The notes under the pieces: model-generated
Databases searched by the model: none
Seen by the model: only the letters and a program-made list of their open reading frames with translations
What the model was told of the DNA's origin: nothing
Shown here: piece by piece, positions 507-58,654 of the stretch
How positions within the stretch are numbered: the stretch's first letter is position 1
Layout of the letters: the number at the start of each line of letters is the position of its first letter
Position numbers and translations under genes: made by a program
DNA from: Branchipolynoe longqiensis
Taxonomy: Eukaryota > Annelida > Polychaeta > Phyllodocida > Polynoidae
Assembly (NCBI GenBank): GCA_030323885.1
Contig: CM059193.1
Coordinates: 74,127,543-74,191,542 of the forward strand
Direction: 5' to 3'
Length of the DNA: 64,000 nucleotides

Positions 507-1260
507 CAAAGACCCTATAATACTAAGACGGCTCACTCAGCCTGTACTGTGTAATCAAAATGATCAAACCCACCACTTGGTGCACTGGCTGTTCTCATGG
601 TTAAACAGGTGCTATATTGTCCATGTTGCCGGAAACATGCATAATTCACAAACCCTGACTATGGGCTTGATATGAGCAGCACCATAGATACCGTTCGTAG
701 CGCGCGTCGCTATGTACAAAGTTAACTTCCGGTAGTAGATTCAAAGGCTTGTCCAGTCCTTACCTGGCCACCGTCGTCGACGGATCGATTGAGCGAATAA
801 GAAAATTGTGCTAATTGTTGCTCGACAATCATGCCTAAAGCATAGTAAAGTCAGAAGTGTTGTGGGGAAGTATTCGCAGGCATTGCTTGAATCAATGGAT
901 CCATCTGGTGGGTCGAGTGGTGCGAACAACAGGAGTAATGTTGTTGTTTGTACGGTGTCTTCGTCTTGACTTGGTGCGCTGGCTGTTCTCTTGGTTAAAC
1001 AGGTGCTATATTATATGTATAAATGTATATATGAATGTGAAAGATGTGTGATGATGGCGATGCTGATGATGATGTGTATTTGTTCATAGCAATTTCATAT
1101 TGATGTGTATTCATACTTACCTATCTGATGTATAATATAATTGTATGTGCTTACATGTGAAACACCAACCAGCAGCTGGGCTCCTCAAACCCACCACAAG
1201 GTGGCACTGCGAAATGTACATTACTAGGGGGTGAGCCATCTTAGTATTATAGGGTCTTTG
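507..1260. mobile_element. TIR element, AAGACCC family (R1), with internal duplication
   Basis: Terminal inverted repeats of about 30 bp start CAAAGACCCTATAATACTAA on the left and match the reverse complement of the right end. The 7-bp direct repeat ACTATGA directly abuts both ends (500-506 and 1261-1267), a likely target duplication. A segment of about 45 bp (near 575-617) recurs at 968-1011, so the interior is partly duplicated. A shorter relative lies at 9193-9488. No transposase frame; non-autonomous. Confidence 0.75.
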
Positions 1261-5082: not shown

Positions 5083-5173
5083 GAGCCAGATCATGGGGAA
5101 TAGGGTTGATGCCCAGTGCAGCAGTATGTACGGGAAGACATACATTAATCTAGTTGGAGATAACATGGGGCGG

Positions 5174-5645
5174 GGCGTAATCGATTAATCAACTCGCGTC
5201 ACCTGAGCCACTTTTTGGCGCATGCGCACATCCTACAGACTCGGGTCGAATAATCGAATACGCTTCTCCATGCTCGGGGTGGACAAAATGGTGGCTTAAT
5301 TCAAAACTTTACAACAAAACTGAAATAACCGATATAACTACAGCAAAATGGGATATAAAGTATTTATGATTGCATAGTTTAGTTATATTTCCATTTCATT
5401 AATCTGTGTTATTACCCAAAACAAACATGTAGAACTGGTACTGGTAGCTATTATGATGCAGGACGGTACCAGCACAATTGTGACATTATCGTTCCTAGCA
5501 AACCCCATGCAAGAGGTGGGTTACTGGGGTCGGGTCATTTTGCACACAGCACATGTTTTTGACAACTCCACTCTTGGTGTTCGATTTGAAATTCTAGCAA
5601 CTCGGGTGACCCGAATCGCCCGGGTCGTGTTAATCGATTACGCCC
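5174..5645. mobile_element. TIR element ending GGCGTAATCGATTA (H1)
   Basis: The left end GGCGTAATCGATTAATCAAC is inverted at the right end (GTTAATCGATTACGCCC). The next ~40 bp are also related in inverse (CACCTGAG and CACCCGAGT). It contains GCGCATGCGCA near 5217. A partial copy is at 39328-39545. Non-coding. Confidence 0.7.
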
Positions 5646-6011
5646 ATGATGATATCGTGGCAGATTATCATCAACCACAAGAACATGTGATGGTGACCTA
5701 ATACAAATTGAGAAAGCTGTTAAAATTATCTGCTTAACATCCTTCCATAATACCAGTTAAACATACATAGATAACATCATTGTAACACAGACAACAAATT
5801 CAACCACACATTTATTGATTACACTTTACAGTTAAGCCAAAAGAATTGTTTCTTAAAAGAAAAAAGTTGAAAAAAGCATTTGGGTAGATGTATGGTGTCG
5901 ATATGCAAATTTTCATATTTTCACTTTATCACAGAATCATATGGGTAGTATTTATTGCTAATATACTTAATACACAGAGGCAATAATAAATATTTGACTT
6001 ATTATCTCCCC
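5646..6011. other. No recognisable feature
   Basis: AT-rich sequence between two repeats. I see no family similarity and no credible coding region. Confidence 0.4.
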
Positions 6012-6082
6012 TAAACCCCATCCTGATATGACTTTGGATGTTGCTAGGACGTAAAACAACAACAAACAAATAAACAAACCTC
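6012..6082 (+). mobile_element. SINE-A 3' tail fragment
   Basis: Only the terminal CCTGATATGACTTTGGATG and GCTAGGACGTAAAACAACAA segments remain. Confidence 0.8.
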
Positions 6083-6237
6083 CCCCAAAAAAGGCAAACT
6101 CATTAACAATGTAACATGGACACAAAAAATGTGGTACGCAGTTTCTGAGAATGACCCATTTATACATGGGACGTACTGCTTCTCAAGTGCTGGTATACCC
6201 TAGATATAGGTCGTGGTCGCCAGTTATGTAGAGTCTA

Positions 6238-6738
6238 CGGCTCGAATCTGTGGTTGTGTCGGCAGGCTATAGTGAAATCAATGCAGACAAAGAGAAAGGA
6301 AGACTATAGAGTGTAAAGAAGGAGAGAGAGTCAAGCCCTCTGGTATATATGTATATGGTGACATGGGTTCATTGCAGAGTATCACCCCACTCCTTTCCCG
6401 CAATGGGAAACAATCATTATTGGCCCTACCAATATGGATCCAGCATTCCTGGTCCCCATGGCTACCAGTGGTCTGCCCACCACCACCAAGCTGTATGGGC
6501 CCATTACCCCCACCAACCTTGACCCTGAGTGTGGTAATCCTACCCAGCAGAGGGGGAGGGGGTAGGCCCTGAGTGCCCTCACACCCAGGCCTGCGAGCAC
6601 CACCATGTCTATTTACATCCCACTCAGGCACCACCAGCGCCTACATATATATACATACATGCGCTTGGTCACATACACTGATCAGTAATAGAACATTTGC
6701 ATTACCCACTATGCCGTAAATCGCGATATTTTACACAT
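6238..6738. repeat. Dispersed ~500-bp repeat D, copy 1
   Basis: Aligns along its length with 31489-32016, from CTCGAATCTGTGG to ATGCCGTA.AT.G.GATATT. Short open frames on both strands are not shared as proteins. The copy contains a short TACATATATATACATACATG tract where the second copy has a long (TA)n run. The element type is unknown. Confidence 0.8.
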
Positions 6739-6967
6739 GGGTGTGGCGTCCTGAAACCGAGGCAGCTATTAGTTTACAAACCTCTCACTTAGTATCTTAT
6801 GAATTTTTTCAAGGATATGATACTGCTAGATCTCATAATATTCCCCGATTAAAGGCAGAATGATGAAGACCAATAAAATATTGTCCGCAGTTGAAATTCC
6901 CCCTCCTTAATAAAAGAAAATGCAATGAAAAGAAATGGTGCTTTGACAATAATTGATGGAAGTCTGG

Positions 6968-7165
6968 ATATGTGTCAGGGGGCATTTCAAACAAATATGT
7001 CACTTTGCCTAGAGTGGGATTCAAACCCACATTTCTGCTATTCAGTGGTGAATTTCCTAGCCACTGGACAACCTTAGTTCCTGATGCAGCTAACTACCAC
7101 ATTCCTACCTGTAAATGTGCCACTTCCCCTGGTGAGCTGAGTGCAGCCCACTACACTCATGCCCT
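6968..7165 (-). mobile_element. SINE-B-like tRNA-derived element
   Basis: Contains the reverse complement of a tRNA-like head (GTGGGATTCAAACCCACAT is the B-box side). A conserved tail-side block GGTGAGCTGAGTGCAGCCCA matches the GACCACTACACTC-type region of the SINE-B array at 62501. Diverged copy. Confidence 0.65.
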
Positions 7166-7167
7166 GT

Positions 7168-7298
7168 ATTGTAAAGTACCAACTGTAGAAGCATTTGAGA
7201 GAAGGCTGGATAGACATTGGCGAGGACACCCACAATTATTTGACTTCAAGGCTCTGTCCACCTCCATATATGTGTGCAAAATAAATAGGGTTTTATAA
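7168..7298 (+). pseudogene. LINE reverse-transcriptase C-terminal fragment
   Basis: Plus-strand translation gives VPTVEAFERRLDRHWRGHP before a stop at 7298. I recognise this pattern (PTVxxFKxRLDxHW) from the C-terminal end of CR1-like non-LTR retrotransposon polyproteins. Only ~40 residues remain, and they are fused in frame to SINE-B sequence by accident. The exact clade cannot be named. Confidence 0.5.
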
Positions 7299-7472
7299 AA
7301 CCATAATGAGCTGGGCCTAGATTAGCCAGAAGAGCATATGTAAGCTAATCTGTAAGTAATTTGTGTGATTACGATTACACCTGAATCAGATATTGCACTT
7401 GGTTCACCAGCCATTCACACTATTCACACGTGACCTAATTAGGAGTCAGAACAAGGCTGAGTATGCATCAGG

Positions 7473-9667: not shown

Positions 9668-12302
9668 CTAGGCCTGTAGAAGGGCCTGATTGGCTTGGTG
9701 AATTCTTACCAGGTTCTTGAATTCTAGTTGTGTTTGTGCATGTCTAATTCTGACTGGGAGTTCATTCCATAATTTGCTGCCTTTGTAGATAGGGGCTCTT
9801 GTCAGTCTATTTGTGAGTGGTTTAGGAACTTTGAGGAGTGTAGCATCCCCCTGCCTGGTAACTCTGGTAGTATGGTCTCTGTAGTTTTCATCCTTGGCTC
9901 TGATAAACATAAGAGATAGCAGATGTGCATCTCTCCTTTGGCTCAGGTATGTGATATTAGATCTAGTGTGCATCTCATTCACTGAGAGATCTTTGCCCCT
10001 ATATACTGTTCTAAGAGCTCAGTTTTGAGTTCTCTGTAATTTATTTTCTTGTTGTTTTGTTAAAAGGCCATAGATTAGATCATTATAATCTATTATTGGC
10101 AGTATTGTTGCCTTATACAGTTTTAGCGCTGTGTTCTCACTCATGTAGCATCTTATTTTTCTAAGGGTTGTCATTCTCATACCTAGATATTGGTTCAGCC
10201 TCGATAGTTGCTGGTTCGCATTCAGTGTAGAGTCAAGTGTGGTTCCTAAGTATTTGTACGAGTTCACTTCTCTTAGCACTGCATTGCCTATACATAGCTC
10301 TATATTTTGCGCGTGCAATTTTCTAGATTTTGTTCCAAATATCACATATTCTGATTTGTGTGTGTTTAAGGTAAGTCTGTTATCAGCACACCAAATATTG
10401 ACCTTTTTTAACACCTTGTTTACCATAGTAGCTGCCAGAATAATGTTTTTATTGTGCACTGTGAGGACAGCATCATCCGCAAAAAGTGTGAAATTAGCAC
10501 TGGTAGACAGCAATGGTAGGTCATTGATAAATATCAGAAAGAGGAGTGGTCCCAAAGTGGAACCTTGGGGCACTCCTGTTCTGACAGTTCTCGTGGAGGA
10601 TTCTGTATTATTAATTGGTGTGACTTGTTGTCTATTGTTTAAGTAGTTGGATATGAATCTACATGATCTTTTTCCCAGTCCAGCTCTTTTGATCTTACAT
10701 AGCAGGATTTGGTGGTCAATTGTATCAAAAGCTTTCTTGAAATCAAGAAAAACAGCTATTGTAAGCTCGCCTCTGTCTGTGCTAATCAACAATTCATCCA
10801 TTAATGAGGCAAGTGCCTTAGTCGTTGATCTTGCTTTTCTGAAGCCATTTTGTTGGGTGGCTAAATAGTTAGTGTCCTCAAGAAATGTTTTTATTTGGTT
10901 GCGAATTATCTGTTCAATTATTCTGCCAGTGAGAGGTAGTATGGATATAGGTCGCAGTTCATTACAGGACTTTGGGTTACCTACCTTGGGTATAGGGGTA
11001 ACTGTTGCTCTCTTCCATTATTCTGGGAAAATTCCAGTAGTAATTATGAGGTTGTATAGGTATGTAAATTCATCTATCAGAGCCTTGATGGTGCCCTTGA
11101 TAAAGGTTGAACTGATGTCCTTCATGCCTGAAGGTTTGAATGGTGATAGATTTTGTACTTTGGTAAGGATCTTGTCTTTTGTTGTTTCTATGAGATCATA
11201 TCTATGTTGGTTAACTACAACCTTATAGTTTTCCTGGACATCATCTTTTGGTTGAAATTTTTGGGCTAGGTTAGCTCCTATATCAACAAGGTATTTGTTG
11301 ATCTCTTCTGCTAGTTGAATATCAGGTATTGTTTCACCAGTACTGTCATTTATTAGATTACTGATTTTTGGCTTGGGATCAGGCTCTATTTGATCTAGTT
11401 CATACCAAAATTTCTTGGGGTTTTGGTTGTGAATGATGGCTTGGTCAAGATAGTACCTTGATTTTGCCTTTCGAACCTCAGTCCTGGCCTTTCTAGTTAA
11501 GCATTTTGCTATGAATGCATCCCCTGGGTCTTTGGTTAATTCAGCCTTTTGGCAAAAGTAGTCCCGATCTCGTTGTAGTTCTTGTAGTTCGTCATTTAAG
11601 TATTTAGCTGTGTTTTTTCTTATTATCAGTTCAATCATTGGGCAAAGTTTGTCAGCAGCTCTATTAAGGATAGCTTCTAACATGTCCCAGCACTTGTTCG
11701 GATCTTGCTCATAAAATATTTCATTGGTAGCAAATCCCCGTAATGTGGTTGAAAGGTCCTCATAGGTGCAGTTTCTATATGAGTGGCCCCAGTGTGATGT
11801 GGTTTGTTTGTCATTCCTTGTTTTTTTTTTATTATATAAATAGGTTTGTGATCACTTATGTTGTAGTTGAGGATACCAGATGTAGTACAATATTTTATAT
11901 TTGTAAAAGCCAGGTCAATTGTTGTATTTGAGGTTTGTGTGCTTCTAGTAGTTTTGTTAATCATCTGTTGCAGTTCATGTTCTGTGGCAAATTGTCTCGT
12001 GATATTAGCTGATGGTTGATTTTTTGCATTGTAATCTGCATTGTAATCACCAATGAGAAGAGTTTCATATTTGTTAATGTCTATAATTTGTTTCATGGTT
12101 GAGCTTAGTAGGTCAAAAGCTTCCTGCATATTCCCATTTGGGGGCCTATATACATTACCTATTAGAATTTTCCTCAATGTGGCTGTTTAGCCATGTTTCT
12201 GATACTGTAAAAATATCAAGTCCTGACCATGGCAGGTCCATTCTTAGTTGTTCAATTTTATGGGTTAGACTACGTACATTAAGGTGTCCTATTTTAAAGC
12301 CT
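9668..12302 (-). pseudogene. Decayed non-LTR retrotransposon ORF2 (endonuclease + reverse transcriptase)
   Basis: Encodes the pol-type protein of a jockey-superfamily LINE (CR1/L2-like). Reading the minus strand, 12302-12180 gives the start of an apurinic endonuclease domain (GHLNVRSL, VSETWLN). After an internal deletion near 12178, GNVYRPPNG, GDYNADY and the catalytic ISDHKPIYI follow. The frame shifts at a T10 run (11821-11830). From 11683 to 9668 one frame holds a linker, then RT motifs FLDFKKAFDTIDH, GVPQGSTLGPLL and the catalytic FADDAVL, and ends with the C-terminal block YKGSKLWNELP. This frame is broken only by TAA at 11018 and TGA at 10019; the latter sits where QNRALR would be expected, consistent with CGA to TGA. 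No ORF1 was recognised upstream. The protein would have nicked target DNA and primed reverse transcription. It is dead as it stands. Confidence 0.9.
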
Positions 12303-22576: not shown

Positions 22577-23010
22577 TCAATCAATCAATCAATAGTTCCG
22601 TCCTCTAGTCGAGGGTTGGATGCAATGGTTCTCCACTTGTCCCGATGGTGTGCTGTTCTGATAGACTGTGAATAATTCAAGCCTGTCCACTGTGAAATAT
22701 TTGTAAACCATGATGTTCTTGGTGTCCCTCTCCCTCTGCTGCCATTCACCTTCCTTTCCAACAATGTACGTATATTGAACTCTGACAAATGATGTGGCCA
22801 AAATAAATAAGTTTCTTTGTCTGTATAGTGGCAAACAAGCGTTTCTTATTTTTAATTTTTCTGAGAACTTCTTTGTTGGTGATCTTCTTTGTCCATGATA
22901 TTTTCATCATCCTTCGATAAGTCCACATCTCAAATGCGGCTAAACGTTTGTACATTTTCTTAGAGATTGTCCATGTCTCAGCCCCATACATTAGAGTAGA
23001 CCACACATAA
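22577..23010 (-). pseudogene. RTE-type LINE 3' end, frameshifted
   Basis: Minus-strand C-terminal coding region of an RTE-clade retrotransposon. It reads YGAETWTISKKMYKRLAAFE, then MWTYRRMMKISWTKKI and LIYFGHI, shifts frame near 22750, and resumes with GRGTPRTSW and NPRLEDGTID. The 3' tail is TCAATCAATCAATCAA on the plus strand. It matches 41775-42184 along its length and extends ~20 residues further 5'. This is a dead, 5'-truncated insertion. Confidence 0.85.
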
Positions 23011-23039
23011 CACTGAAGAATACCCTTCCTTGTATGTAT

Positions 23040-23160
23040 TAATATCTTACTTGATGGAACTACTCAAATGGATTTGTCAGGTTTTGCACCTAAGCTCTTC
23101 ATATACATTGGCCGGAACTTAAAACCATCAGATTATGCATCTTTAAAGATTAACAATCCA
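23040..23160. mobile_element. Family T fragment
   Basis: Ends in AAACCATCAGATTATGCATC followed by TTTAAAG, the family T right end. The rest is too diverged to align by eye. Confidence 0.5.
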
Positions 23161-23342
23161 ATTATGTTGTGCTTTTAATGTGTTTAATTTCCTTTTTTGC
23201 TAGAGTTGTACCTTCTGACCGCTATGCACTGTTCGAGGTTGAGAACAGTGTGGAAGCTTGCTGCTGCAGGGCTACATTTGTTACCCAGTGTGTGCACTTG
23301 TGAAATGATTCAATTATCACCTTAAGTTTATGTTTTGGCTAG

Positions 23343-23644
23343 TAGTCAGGGGGCCAAAGGCCCAAAACAGCCATAGGTGTGAAAGTGCGTACTAATGCAA
23401 TTTTATTGCAGATTGTGATAGTCATATACCTATATTTTGAGAATCAGGAGGTGGCCACTCTGGCACCCTTGAGCACTTTTTTTTATAAGCCGTTTTTGAT
23501 ATCATGTCATATTGGATCAAACCAGCATTTTTGTGCTGTTCGACATTAGCGGGTAGTGTTCGTATATCAGGTGTAGTATCATTTCTAATAAACTTAGCAC
23601 TACATATATTATACCAGAAGAAAGGATATTGAAGTACCTTTCTC
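23343..23644 (+). repeat. Left terminal inverted repeat
   Basis: Pairs with 27022-27303. Matched landmarks on both arms are GTGTGAAAGTG.GTACTAATG, CTCTGGCACCCTTGAGCA, ATATTGGATCAAACC and GGTAGTGTTCGTATATCAG. The outermost 15 bp are identical. Confidence 0.85.
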
Positions 23645-24159
23645 CTGATGTATACAACTTCTATGTATGATACGAATGTGTAAATACAGAAAGGCTCAAA
23701 AGGAATTATTACTGCCAACTCACGTTAATCAAAATGTACATTTTTTGTGGAAAAACTAATCCCGATAATAAAGAAAATAATATGTCACTTTCAGACAATT
23801 TATTCGTCTCATTCATGGCTATTTAATTACGGTATAGGTGTGAAGATGCTATTCAGGTAAAATTCCCATCTAAAACAATTTTAACAATGCCTGGTCGTCT
23901 GTCAAAGTGTTCAGGACATGTCAATCAACAAAACCGAAAATGTTCAAAATATCGTTAAACTTGGATACCTTCAAAGACTTATGACATTATTGTGTTTGCA
24001 GACGTTATTTAAACACAAATATTACTATTCTGTAAAACAAGGTATGGAAGTGGTGTTTTGACCATTATATTCATTTCCAAACTATATAAACAATCTTTGA
24101 TATACTCCTAGGTTGAACTGGTGAGCCATCATAGATGATACCCGACGTGAATGATGGAA

Positions 24160-26539
24160 TCCACAGCAAAATGTTTCTTCCCAGGCTGAGACAATCCGAA
24201 GGGAACCCTCGTTACTGGAAAGTAACAGCGAATAAAAAACATTATTTCTGCAAGCATATCACGCGAAGATTTGATCCATATTGGGCTCCAAGAAGACCTC
24301 GACAACAATCCAAACCTCGCTTTACAGTTTCACAAGTCCTGCGTATCCAGCTATACATCAAAGACACATATTGCTAGGGAACGAAAGCGCATAGAAACCA
24401 TCGATACACATGATCATCAACAGAAAAGGAGGCGATCCAAATTCAGCTCTTTTGATTTCAGGGTGCATTTCCTCATATGTGGTGAAAAGTGCCTCTCGAA
24501 GGACTCAAAGAATCCTTATCGATGGAGGAGAGTCATCCAATGTTGCACGAGAGAGATGAAGAATGAACTTCTAACTGTATCTGAAGAACGAAACGATGCC
24601 TCAGCTGAGCAAGTTTGTATCCGGATTAATGGTTCTTTAGCAGATTTGCATGCCGCGGATGCACGCTACCATTTTGACTGTTTCACGCAATTCACTGGCG
24701 AGCGCAACGTCAAATTTGTCTCCAATATTGCTACAAAGTCAGAGCCATCCACATGTGATCTTGCATTCCAACATGTCGTGAACACTCTGAGAGGGAGTGC
24801 ATCTACAGTGTGGAATTCAGTCGAGATCATCATCATCATCATCATCATCATCATGCTGTCGGTCGCGATGCGACAAAGACTGCTTTCATTACTTGACTGC
24901 CACTCATGTGCGATTGTACATTTCATGAAAGCTGCCTGCAAAAATGTTGAAGTGCTGCTGGCTTTTGCAAGTTACCAGCTGCACTCTCTCGGGGAGCAAA
25001 TAGAGGTTTCACACCGGCAAGAACATGTCAAGACAGGCGCAAAACTATTTGTCCCTGCAGTGGCTGGTCGGGAGATGTTGGGAGTTCCATACATCAACTG
25101 CCTTTAATGCTGCCACAGTGACATGGTTTTCTGTTTAGGGTTTGCTCCCTTAGCCTTCGGTTCTGTCAAGGACCTGTACCACAAGGCAGAGGTTTACAAC
25201 TCTGCAAGGCAGGGGCGTCAAACTCCCTGAGGTATTGCTATACCTGCAATACTTGCATACCTCTGACCATTAGTCGAGATATACAGCTTGTATAGTCGAG
25301 ATATACAGCTTGTATAGAGATCACATGTCAGCTACAGTGAGAAGTAGCAGTTTGGCTGATGACATGTGTGCTGAGAATGTCATTCAGGCAAGAGACTGAA
25401 AGGACAGTTCACAACTTGTCACACGGTTTGAAGAGCACTTTAGACCAGCTCTGGTGATAATGCAGGTGAAAGGATGTGCCAGTCTAATTTGCTTAAAAAA
25501 ATATCTGCCAGCCACTCTGAAACTTGTGGAAGTAAATGATTCTGATGTTGTGAAGGACATGTGTCACAAGATACAAGCTGAGGTGCAGTCTAGGTCTCTC
25601 CCAAAAACAACTGCATACAAGTTGGGTGACTTCACCAAAGACAGTGCCGTTTATAATTGCAGTGAAACGCTTCTCACGCTACTGTCAAGCCTAGTGTCAA
25701 ATGGTAAAGTGTCTAAGAAGTCTCTGGCCTTGGCGCAAGTCATACAAGCTTTAGTGTTGCAGAGATTTAACCAGACAACACTGGGCCTGGCTCTCCAAAT
25801 ACACCATCGCTCTGGATCGAAGGAACTGGTTGACATTCTGTACTCCAATGGTTTCTGCTGCAGCTATGACAAGGTGAAAAGATTCAGGAAATCCGCTGCC
25901 TTGCATGCTTGTGAAAGCAAACGTATCATACCCATATGGCAAAGGGAAGGCTTCCGTGTGCAGTATGCTACTGAAATCTAAGGTTCCACTTTGGGATTTG
26001 CAGATCCTGATGCATCAGAAGAGGACTGGACAAGGGAAGGTTTCCAATTCTTGTCCTATTTGTATGGTGGTGTGGTGGCGTCAATACTAGATGGGCTGAG
26101 ATATCTACTGTTCAGCAAAAAGAAGGATCCACCAAAGATTAAGAGCCTTCCTCCAACGAGCGAAGCTGCACTACAGCACATCAAGAGAGCCTGTATCCAG
26201 GTACTACCATGGCGAGTGGCAGACCAGCTACACCAACCAGATATTGATGTTTGTCAGTATGGATGGGAGTTGAACAAAACCCTTCTTTGCCCTGTCAATG
26301 GCACTTCCACTGCTGCCCCACCGTCCCTCATGCAATTTGTGGCATGTGGTTGCAAATCGAGCATGCCATGTGGGAGCCTCAAATGCCGCTGTCGGGCAGG
26401 CAGGCTTTCCTGCATGACATACTGTAAATGCGGAGCAGACGAGGGATGCTCAAACGAACACACAAAACATGAATCTGCCCCATTCATGGATGGCGACGAG
26501 AACGACGAGGACGATAATGAGGAAAGCGCAGAGGACTGA
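24160..26539 (+). pseudogene. Broken gene of a cysteine-rich (CXC/tesmin-like) invertebrate orphan family
   Basis: Function unknown. The N-terminal part (24250-24827) includes NPNLALQFHKSCVSSYTSK, a Cys-containing block (FLICGEKCLSKDSKNPYRW) and LADLHAADARYHFDC. The frame is interrupted by a SINE-C (24828-25272) and a 22-bp tandem duplication just after it. From 25454 to 26539 one frame, with a single in-frame TAA at 25979, holds LPKTTAYKLGDFTKDSA, TTLGLALQIHHRSGSKELVD and SYDKVKRFRKSAA. It then continues with SLPPTSEAALQHIKRA and a C-terminal cysteine cluster of spacing CxCx5Cx4CxCx6Cx3CxCx5C, followed by an acidic tail. I recall large invertebrate families with this architecture, some carrying a central TGCDT-type domain. 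That centre is missing here, between about 25960 and 26000. Probably an internally deleted, non-functional copy. Whether the family is a transposase or cargo is unknown. Confidence 0.7.
24828..25272 (-). mobile_element. SINE-C insertion with target duplication
   Basis: Flanked by AGTCGAGAT at 24819-24827 and again at 25273-25281. Starts with (ATC)n, then GCTGTCGGTCGCGATGCGAC, and runs to CTGCAATACTTGCATACC. It splits the surrounding reading frame between codons for WNSVE and IYS. This gives the boundaries of the family: 445 bp. Confidence 0.85.
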
Positions 26540-27021
26540 TGGATTGGATCCTGAAACCTGAATCATGTGAAATGATGTGTCACAAACGCTTTACGTATGA
26601 CACATATGGCAACCTAAATGAATAAGACAATACACCATGTCTGTTTGTTATATTGGTTTATGTACTATTTCCCAAAGAAATACTAAAGCCATTTGACATA
26701 TTTCAAATTCATCTTGTGAAAAGTGTATCTCTGCATATGTCAGATCTTATTCCGGATTTAGTTTGGTTTACTTATGTATCCATCAATTGCTTTGTTTAAT
26801 ATTTTTTTCATTAAATGTATAAATAGGATTGGGACTTGCTTATTCCAATTTGATACATATTTGAGGTACAACTACTACATTTATTATTATTTTAATAGCC
26901 AAAATATCATACTGAAATGAGTATTTCGTAATATTTGTCAGTTTGAGTTGTCAATGACAATTGCTTGTGAATGTATACTGTGGCATGTATATTTGCTGTA
27001 CAATGATAATTTTTACACCAT

Positions 27022-27303
27022 GAGAATGGTACTTCAATATACTTTCTTCTGGTATACTATATGTAGTGCTACGTTAGAAATGTTACTATAGCTGATATAC
27101 GAACACTACCCCCTAATGCCACAAAAAATGCCGGTTTGATCCAATATGACATCATATCAAAAACAGCTTATAACAAAAATTGCTCAAGGGTGCCAGAGTC
27201 GCACCCTCTTGATTCTAACTACCAATAACCCTATCTAGCACAATCAGCAATAAAATTGCATTAGTACACACTTTCACACCTACGTGAGTTGGCCCCCTGA
27301 CTA
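27022..27303 (-). repeat. Right terminal inverted repeat
   Basis: Inverse of 23343-23644, ending TTGGCCCCCTGACTA. It is about 20 bp shorter than the left arm because of small gaps. Confidence 0.85.
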
Positions 27304-27306
27304 TAG

Positions 27307-41679: not shown

Positions 41680-41774
41680 GATACTATGCATAGAATGGGA
41701 CTTGAACCTATACTTCTGCCATTCCGGGGTCATCATTCTACCCATTAGTCTATTTAGGCTCCCTGATGCAATTG
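41680..41774 (-). mobile_element. SINE-B-like head fragment
   Basis: GAATGGGACTTGAACCTATA, CATTCCGGGGTCATCATTCT and TAGGCTCCCTGATG parallel the SINE-B head. It is cut by the RTE insertion. Confidence 0.6.
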
Positions 41775-42184
41775 TATGGGGCTCAGACATTGACAATCTC
41801 TAAGAAAATGTACAAACGCTTAGCAGCATTTGAGATGTGGACTTATCGAAGGATGTTGAAAATATCATGGACAAAGAAGATCACCAACAAAGAAGTTCTC
41901 AGAAAAATTAAAAATAAGAAAAGCTTGTTTGCCACTATACAGACAAAGAAACTTATTTATTTTGGCCACATCATTCGTCAGAGTTCAATATACCGTACAT
42001 TGTTGGAAGGGAAGGTGAATGGCAGCAGAGGGAGAGGGAGACCAAGAACATCATGGTTTACAAATATTTCACAGTGGACAGGCTTGAATTATTCACAGTT
42101 TATCAGAACAGCACAACATCGGGACAAGTGGAGAACCATTGCATCCAACCCTCGACTAGAGGACGGAACTATTGATTGATTGAT
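41775..42184 (+). pseudogene. RTE-type LINE 3' end with 11-bp target duplication
   Basis: C-terminal ~135 residues of an RTE-clade polyprotein: YGAQTLTISKKMYKRLAAFE, MWTYRRMLKISWTKKI, LIYFGHIIRQSS, EGKVNGSRGRGRPRTSW, ending NPRLEDGTID. The 3' end is a short (TTGA)n tail, typical of RTE elements. TGATGCAATTG flanks it on both sides (41764-41774 and 42185-42195). The frame is open throughout, so the insertion is younger than its relative at 22577-23010. It is strongly 5'-truncated, so it cannot act alone. The apparent ATG at 41766 belongs to the target sequence. Confidence 0.9.
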
Positions 42185-56971: not shown

Positions 56972-57924
56972 TCAACCAAATAGTGTTGAGAGTGCCCAGG
57001 TTGCCACGGTAAAGGCTCGGGCCGGGACGTAGGTGTGTACGGCCGCGGACCGCCAGTGGCCGAGGTCGCTGACATCTTGAAGGGGTGCGCCGGCTGCTGC
57101 ACAGGCCTGGGCGGCCCCTCGTCGGAGGCTATGGAGCGTGTAGGTGTTGGGGTCTGGGCACCCGGTGTGTTGGAGAGCAGCGCGAAGCGCGGTGGTGAGT
57201 GTTCGGACGGTGAGTGGTGCGCCGTCCGGGGTCAAGAAGGCCGGGTCGAGGGGAAGAGATGGCGTGCTGGCCGCGTACCGCCTCCAGGCGCGTACGGGGC
57301 AGCAGTCGGAGGAGGGGATCCTGGGGATCCTGATGGTGAAGGCGTAGGTGATGGATCTGGAGGTCTTGGTGGATCGGACCTTGATGGTAAGGTGGGTTGT
57401 GTCGTCCAGTACGTCGCCATGCCTCAAGGTGTGGCCCGGATCATCGGGGCGCCCGGTTATGAGCAGGTTCCCTTGCCAAAGCAGTGAGAAGTAGCCGATG
57501 AGGAGGGCGGATGTTAGGACCTCAGCGAGAGGGCCACCTCGGCGGAAGTAGCGGACGACGTGGAGAAGGTGGTGGGTTGTGAGCGGCGGGACCTGGCGTG
57601 GGAGGTGGGTGGACGACCGGAGGACGCCGCGCTTGATTACTGATATGAGGTAGGAGTCGAAACTGCGTGTTCTGCCATTCCAGAGCCTCACCCAGGTCCA
57701 GGCCACGCTGAGGTAATTCATGATGGCGCCATCCGAAGTGAGGGAGGCGGAGAGGTGTGCGATATAGGATGCTATGTCGAGCTGGGTCGGGGACAAGGGG
57801 TCATAGTCTCGTGTCCGGGCGTGCGCGTGGTAGACCTTGAGCTGGAGGTGTTTGTTCCGCCATGTTCCACGGGCGAGGCCGGCACGGAAGAGGTGGAGTA
57901 CGTCCTGGTGGTCTTGTTGTGTGC
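56972..57924 (-). pseudogene. Tyrosine recombinase (DIRS/Crypton-like), terminal exon
   Basis: Would catalyse site-specific strand exchange, as in YR-type transposons. The minus-strand frame of ~316 codons starts after a strong splice acceptor (TACTAAC branch-like sequence, then CCTCTCTCTCGCCAG, exon from 57924). It begins with TQQDHQDVLHLFRAGLARGT. The catalytic domain runs ALLIGYFSLLWQGNLL (first-arginine region), then HSLRRGAAQ (HxxR), LGHWRS (H/W) and HTYV (tyrosine), ending at 56972. The first catalytic Arg appears to be Trp (LLWQ where LLRQ is usual), explainable by CGG to TGG, so the copy is probably inactive. GC content is far above the surroundings. No reverse transcriptase lies nearby, so DIRS versus Crypton cannot be decided. 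Confidence 0.8.
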
Positions 57925-58654
57925 CTGGCGAGAGAGAGGCAAGTTAGTATCTCTTCCCAGGCTAGTCAATGTCGGCGACAATTGAGGAGTCATGGTGGAC
58001 ACGTATGCGGACGAGGTCCATGTCGTGCACGAAACGGGCCACCCTCCGCCGCGGTATTCCGAAATGTATAATATATAATACATAAAATTCTCGGGCGCGA
58101 ATGACAATGTGCGCGCCCGTAGTTAGGGTTTGGGCCGGTGGTGGCACCACCATTCCCAGGGTGGAAGGAACGGAACAAATACATTGGTAATAAATAGATA
58201 ATAAATGGGTAATAACTGATAACAATCATACATTCCCTTCCACGCTTTTATACTTGCATAATGCTTTTACATCATATATATATTGTAGCATATATATATA
58301 TGGAGAATGAAGCTGGGTTCATTGGCAGTCCATCATAAATCGTGATGCAAAATCCACTTTTACATGCGTACAAAAGGGAATTAATTATTTAGTTAATGAG
58401 AGGGTGGAAGACCAGTGGGAAACCATATTAATGAGTATATTACTCCCGCAAAGGCCTATTATAGGAGAAACAAATATAAGAGTAATAACAACTCCCTTCC
58501 GTGTATTTATACTTGCATAATGTTTATACATAATATAAATATATATATATATGAAGATCCTAGGGAAGTCTCTGGTATAGACCCCTTTCAATGTTTGAAA
58601 ACATTGGGTAGGCGCGTGCAGCTTGGCTGCAGAAGGAATGCACACTGCCACATA
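57925..58654. other. Putative intron / flank of the recombinase
   Basis: Directly upstream (minus strand) is intron-like sequence. Two related AT-rich blocks, CTTTTATACTTGCATAATGC (58245) and ATTTATACTTGCATAATGTT (58503), with following TATATA tracts, show a ~260-bp duplication. No donor exon was identified. Confidence 0.45.

Follow-up and report, generated by a model that had tools for sequence, protein, structure and literature searches.

The window analysed here is a stretch of 64,000 nucleotides from Branchipolynoe longqiensis (contig CM059193.1, positions 74,127,543 to 74,191,542). With high confidence, an element of 3,961 bp within it is assigned to the DNA transposons with terminal inverted repeats (TIRs) and a target-site duplication (TSD) of 3 bp, and its broken gene to a deleted form of a predicted fusion of a DDE transposase with a nuclease of FEN1/XPG type. 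The most likely superfamily is Academ (AcademX lineage). The assignment is built on directly observed ends, TSDs, empty sites of sibling copies, an association of gene and ends, common deletion junctions, conserved acidic residues and an uninterrupted sister family. The gene remnants were mapped on P0007, a relative of 1,448 amino acids (aa), and the parts of the element are as follows.

23340..23342, no strand: left TSD copy (TAG, 3 bp), read directly; the 3-bp rule comes from sibling pairs
23343..27303, + strand: element, internally deleted copy, 3,961 bp (read directly and by repeat search)
23343..23667, + strand: left TIR arm, outer 15 bp exact (repeat search, arm alignment)
24160..24825, + strand: gene remnant, N-terminal Cys/His-rich region, residues 11-236 of P0007 (tblastn)
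24826..25318, no strand: intragenic DNA without a family-protein match (~490 bp), with an (ATC)n run at its start (gap between tblastn matches; tandem-repeat analysis)
25319..25922, + strand: gene remnant, P0007 residues 229-416, stopping upstream of the first catalytic Asp (tblastn)
25922..25923, no strand: junction of the deletion by which the DDE core is lost together with most of the nuclease, common to 8/32 copies (copy mapping)
25923..26536, + strand: gene remnant, residue 1253 to the C terminus, with a frame change and TAA (tblastn, frame reading)
26345..26449, + strand: C-terminal cluster CxCx5Cx4CxCx6Cx3CxCx5C (read in frame 25982-26536)
26999..27303, - strand: right TIR arm (repeat search, arm alignment)
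27304..27306, no strand: right TSD copy (TAG, 3 bp), read directly

The outer 15 bp at 23343-23357 (TAGTCAGGGGGCCAA) recur exactly, in inverse orientation, at 27289-27303 (TTGGCCCCCTGACTA). Beyond them the repeat search found four more inverted blocks of 45-93 nt (83-94%) that reach 23667 and 26999, and the arms pair across ~300 bp in the alignment. Direct reading and repeat search thus agree with the original prediction, made from the sequence alone, which had described exact 15-bp ends, inverted arms of ~300 bp and an abutting TAG; the cysteine spacing that it reported in the broken gene is likewise present, at 26345-26449. A similar cysteine cluster closes the uninterrupted protein of the sister family described below. 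The gene in the window is disrupted by an in-frame TAA at 25979-25981, by frame changes and by the ~490 bp without a match, and its centre is gone (approximately residues 417-1252 of P0007 by tblastn).

The source genome (1.85 Gb) contains 271 matches to the 15-bp terminus (136 forward, 135 reverse), while the reversed control gave none. The gene family belongs with these termini. The terminus list is complete for C1-C4, and there all 22 scored gene copies have a 15-bp terminus in the correct orientation within 6 kb, 14 of them on both sides; only 0.07% of random segments adjoin such a terminus. This count draws on the 77 candidates that were scored out of 2,026 at first look, and a second piece of the gene copy at C4:39823081 was merged. 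In the genome search with the C-terminal half, likewise, a 3' end of the element (outer 11 bp) follows the gene at ~630-780 bp in each of the 12 best matches.

Pairs of ends were analysed among 100 of the 271 termini (those listed on C1-C4 and part of C5). They form 32 convergent pairs at most 10 kb apart, or 33 with the window copy, and sequence was retrieved for all 32, for one pair as its two ends only. A perfect 3-bp duplication flanks 28 of the 33 pairs, with L017, L020, L021, L031 and L040/L041 as the exceptions. The pair L040/L041 (9.96 kb) was added after the main 32-pair count and has no matching triplet. In that count, duplications of 4-8 bp were found in 0/32 pairs and shuffled end partners gave a mean of 2.0 triplet matches. 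The 28 perfect duplications comprise 17 kinds of target triplet. One of the exceptions, L031, is an 8.55-kb pair of ends with frames of 778 aa (5138-7471) and 485 aa (886-2340), neither of which has a Pfam match; it may be a nested element or combine halves of two different copies.

For 9/32 copies the joined flanks matched available sequence over the join; in some cases, such as L014, the match is the copy's own flank. Six target sites were inspected, and five contain the triplet once in an uninterrupted copy (L011, L015, L028, L032, L036); L034 is off by one base. The closest are those of L011, at window positions 22773-23056 (96.1%, gapless), and of L028, at window positions 507-618 (96.4%, gapless); the remaining inspected sites are 73-92% identical. 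Segment 22773-23056 is a copy of another repeat without the insertion that L011 carries, so that an empty site happens to lie beside the element. An empty site of the window copy itself was looked for and not found. The genome search with the terminus and the inspection of empty sites had both been proposed with the original prediction, which gene copies lacking the TIRs were to refute; no such copy was encountered among the 22 scored on C1-C4. Its assignment of gene to element and its 3-bp target duplication hold. Since the association of gene and ends is joined by TSDs, empty sites and a transposase-like protein, the copy number can be taken to reflect transposition, as it had also proposed.

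Full relatives of the broken gene product comprise ~1,450 aa and contain a conserved D...D...E set, a predicted transposase-like fold and a predicted FEN1/Exo1-like nuclease. In alignment A1, from which P0019 and P0024 were excluded, the acidic residues are conserved in all rows that cover them (D 23/23, D 33/33, E 38/38); in the uninterrupted sister protein they are D439, D613 and E745. The predicted fold matches P element, Hermes and RAG1 with moderate Z scores, and suggests an RNase-H-like core that contains a helical insertion and is followed by the FEN1/Exo1-like nuclease, with a possible winged helix upstream of both. Pfam searches with the window pieces, L015, seven relatives and the sister protein yielded no family above cut-off, precomputed Pfam domains were absent from all 40 relatives (P0001-P0040), PDB sequence searches gave nothing below E 0.5 and an alignment-profile search gave nothing. 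Among viral and prokaryote contigs, scanning turned up no confirmed relative. A recurrent sub-threshold similarity to DUF6589 (PF20231) of 14-21 bits lies near the catalytic Glu (residues 730-791 of the protein of L062, 271-328 of that of L015:1353-2594); the best scores of 21.3, 19.9 and 17.2 bits stay below the Pfam cut-off of 27 bits. It was pursued because the matches fall near one spot in several proteins. A genome search with the DUF6589 model gave two short places above cut-off, and a literature search found no paper naming the domain, which may represent a related transposase core. The orphan proteins are very probably the element's transposase. Of the two roles that the original prediction had allowed for it, transposase or obligate cargo, the conserved residues, the predicted fold and the nuclease bear out the first.

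Fuller copies carry the central region that is missing in the window copy, a point that the original prediction had asked to be checked. Among the 32 mapped copies, L033 alone matches nearly the full length (25-1437), and two deletion junctions cover 21. One common gap with an identical junction is found in eight copies (window, L028, L029, L031, L034, L035, L037 and L039), of which seven have their own perfect target triplet. A second class of 15 copies is without the stretch from residue ~90-93 to 479-530; 13 of them share one junction string, which the pattern did not recover in L013 and L026. Pairwise Kimura two-parameter distances amount to 0.035-0.050 among six of the eight window-class copies, the nested long copies L031 and L034 being excluded, and to 0.011-0.037 among 11 second-class copies. 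Because an identical junction occurs at different target sites, the deleted forms must have been mobile once they existed, presumably using protein supplied by other copies. The window form has no catalytic core, and its junction recurs in seven other copies; its mobilisation in trans by a complete copy is therefore probable. Such copies resemble the KP-type P-element derivatives of Drosophila, which are internally deleted, retain the ends and an N-terminal part and have spread; unlike in these, the reading frame in the window is broken. We know of no repressor activity for a deleted copy of the window type.

A sister family in the same genome, built like the window family, was found with relative P0028 as query. 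Four loci, on C4, C10 (two) and C14 (ends in L054-L061, gene in L062), have stop-free frames of 1,483 codons; further matches (44-87% identity to the query) represent additional copies or families. The one sister gene that was read, L062, encodes 1,481 aa from the first ATG, and its product shares 34% identity with the window family over ~1,000 residues. The sister element measures 6,233 bp, most of which is filled by the frame (~4.4 kb), and ends in TAGTCCGGTAGCCAA. This terminus has 19 genomic matches (reversed control 2), which form seven pairs ~6.2 kb apart and leave five termini unpaired; each of the seven pairs encloses a gene match from the P0028 search. All four pairs examined show 3-bp duplications (ACA, AAT, TAT and GTA), and the four elements are 99-100% identical over nearly all of the retrieved ends. 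With four uninterrupted genes and matching ends the family looks young and is possibly still active.

AcademX nucleases are of the XPG type. A published account assigns duplications of 3-4 bp to AcademX and of 9-10 bp to AcademH and links them to the encoded nuclease and helicase, respectively (PMC10045372). The present elements resemble AcademX in their TSD (3 bp in 28/33 pairs and 4 bp in 0/32; 3 bp in 4/4 examined of the seven sister pairs), in a predicted nuclease encoded with the transposase, in a DDE-type core (conserved D, D and E, moderate-Z fold matches) and in TIRs, present in the window and in the sister family. They differ in that both catalytic parts are gone from the window copy. 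AcademH shares the superfamily name, but its helicase and 9-10-bp duplications (PMC10045372) contrast with the 3 bp found here, and no helicase appeared when the sister protein was scanned against Pfam. As nuclease and 3-bp TSD fit the reported AcademX features, a new family within AcademX is most likely, rather than a new superfamily, in a comparison of described features. The claim of an undescribed transposon is therefore not upheld, a nuclease with 3-4-bp TSDs being already reported for AcademX (PMC10045372); the association of gene and element, the 3-bp TSD, the transposase role and the origin of the abundance stand. A literature search found no paper combining Academ, XPG and transposon.

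The other readings are less probable. A DDE and XPG-nuclease superfamily distinct from Academ and as yet unnamed would agree with the lack of curated family matches above cut-off and with a likeness to Academ seen in described features; it is nonetheless unlikely, given that nuclease and 3-bp TSD both match what is described for AcademX (PMC10045372) and that a second report records an amplification of Academ specific to bivalves and 100 curated Academ elements (PMC10294476). The missing catalytic core of the window copy would also suit a passenger gene in an element mobilised by another protein. This cargo reading was rejected because the family protein has its own DDE core; with the transposase-like predicted fold, the predicted nuclease and a single 1,483-codon frame that dominates the 6,233-bp sister element, it is very improbable.

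CACTA/EnSpm and PIF-Harbinger elements likewise make 3-bp duplications, and we give them scarcely any weight here. CACTA/EnSpm ends start with CACTA/G, whereas the ends found here begin with TAGTC (TAGTCAGG and TAGTCCGG). PIF-Harbinger targets the triplet TWA, unlike the 17 kinds of triplet seen here, and to our knowledge neither superfamily contains an XPG-type nuclease. P element, Hermes (hAT) and RAG1 have in common with the family the RNase-H-like core, here predicted, in which a helical insertion precedes the catalytic Glu; the 3-bp TSD and the fused nuclease set the family apart. Duplications measure 8 bp in P element and hAT and 5 bp in Transib/RAG, and an 8-bp duplication was found in 0/32 pairs. 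From FEN1, Exo1 and XPG themselves the predicted nuclease differs by its position in a transposon protein with a cysteine tail. That an inverted repeat surrounds unrelated gene debris by chance, a reading for which no supporting point was found, is already refuted by the counts of 271 termini against none in the reversed control and of 22/22 scored gene copies against 0.07% of random segments.

In an AcademX-type transposon, the N-terminal part and the cysteine tail would bind DNA, and the DDE core would cut the element ends and join them to the target at a 3-bp stagger. The nuclease may cut or trim the second strand or handle flaps, which is the least certain step. The window copy, devoid of the core of both enzymes, would be mobilised in trans by a complete copy. 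Tentatively, one might go further and imagine that a single protein performs the full cut-and-paste reaction with two nucleases, DDE joining and strand cutting by the fused FEN1/Exo1-type enzyme, with no need for a hairpin or a host flap nuclease, and that the near-identical uninterrupted sister copies are its live version; this is possible rather than probable.

Further sequences resembling mobile elements were observed in the window. A 323-aa frame at 56975-57943 (- strand) contains a tyrosine-recombinase domain barely above cut-off (PF00589, E 2.5e-6) and possibly belongs to a Crypton- or DIRS-type element. At 10022-12186 (- strand) lies a remnant of a non-LTR (long terminal repeat) retrotransposon, with one frame that matches reverse transcriptase (PF00078, E 1.1e-36) and another that matches an endonuclease (PF14529, E 2e-10). 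By eye, a frame of 157 aa at 41706-42176 resembles the tail of a reverse transcriptase; it has no Pfam match.

The two junctions found across most of the mapped copies illustrate how non-autonomous copies originate, and the uninterrupted genes and matching ends of the sister family make the two-nuclease design testable. None of the 40 relatives has a precomputed Pfam domain, and such proteins would therefore be annotated as orphans. Reading such orphans as transposases would turn apparent lineage-specific genes into mobile DNA.
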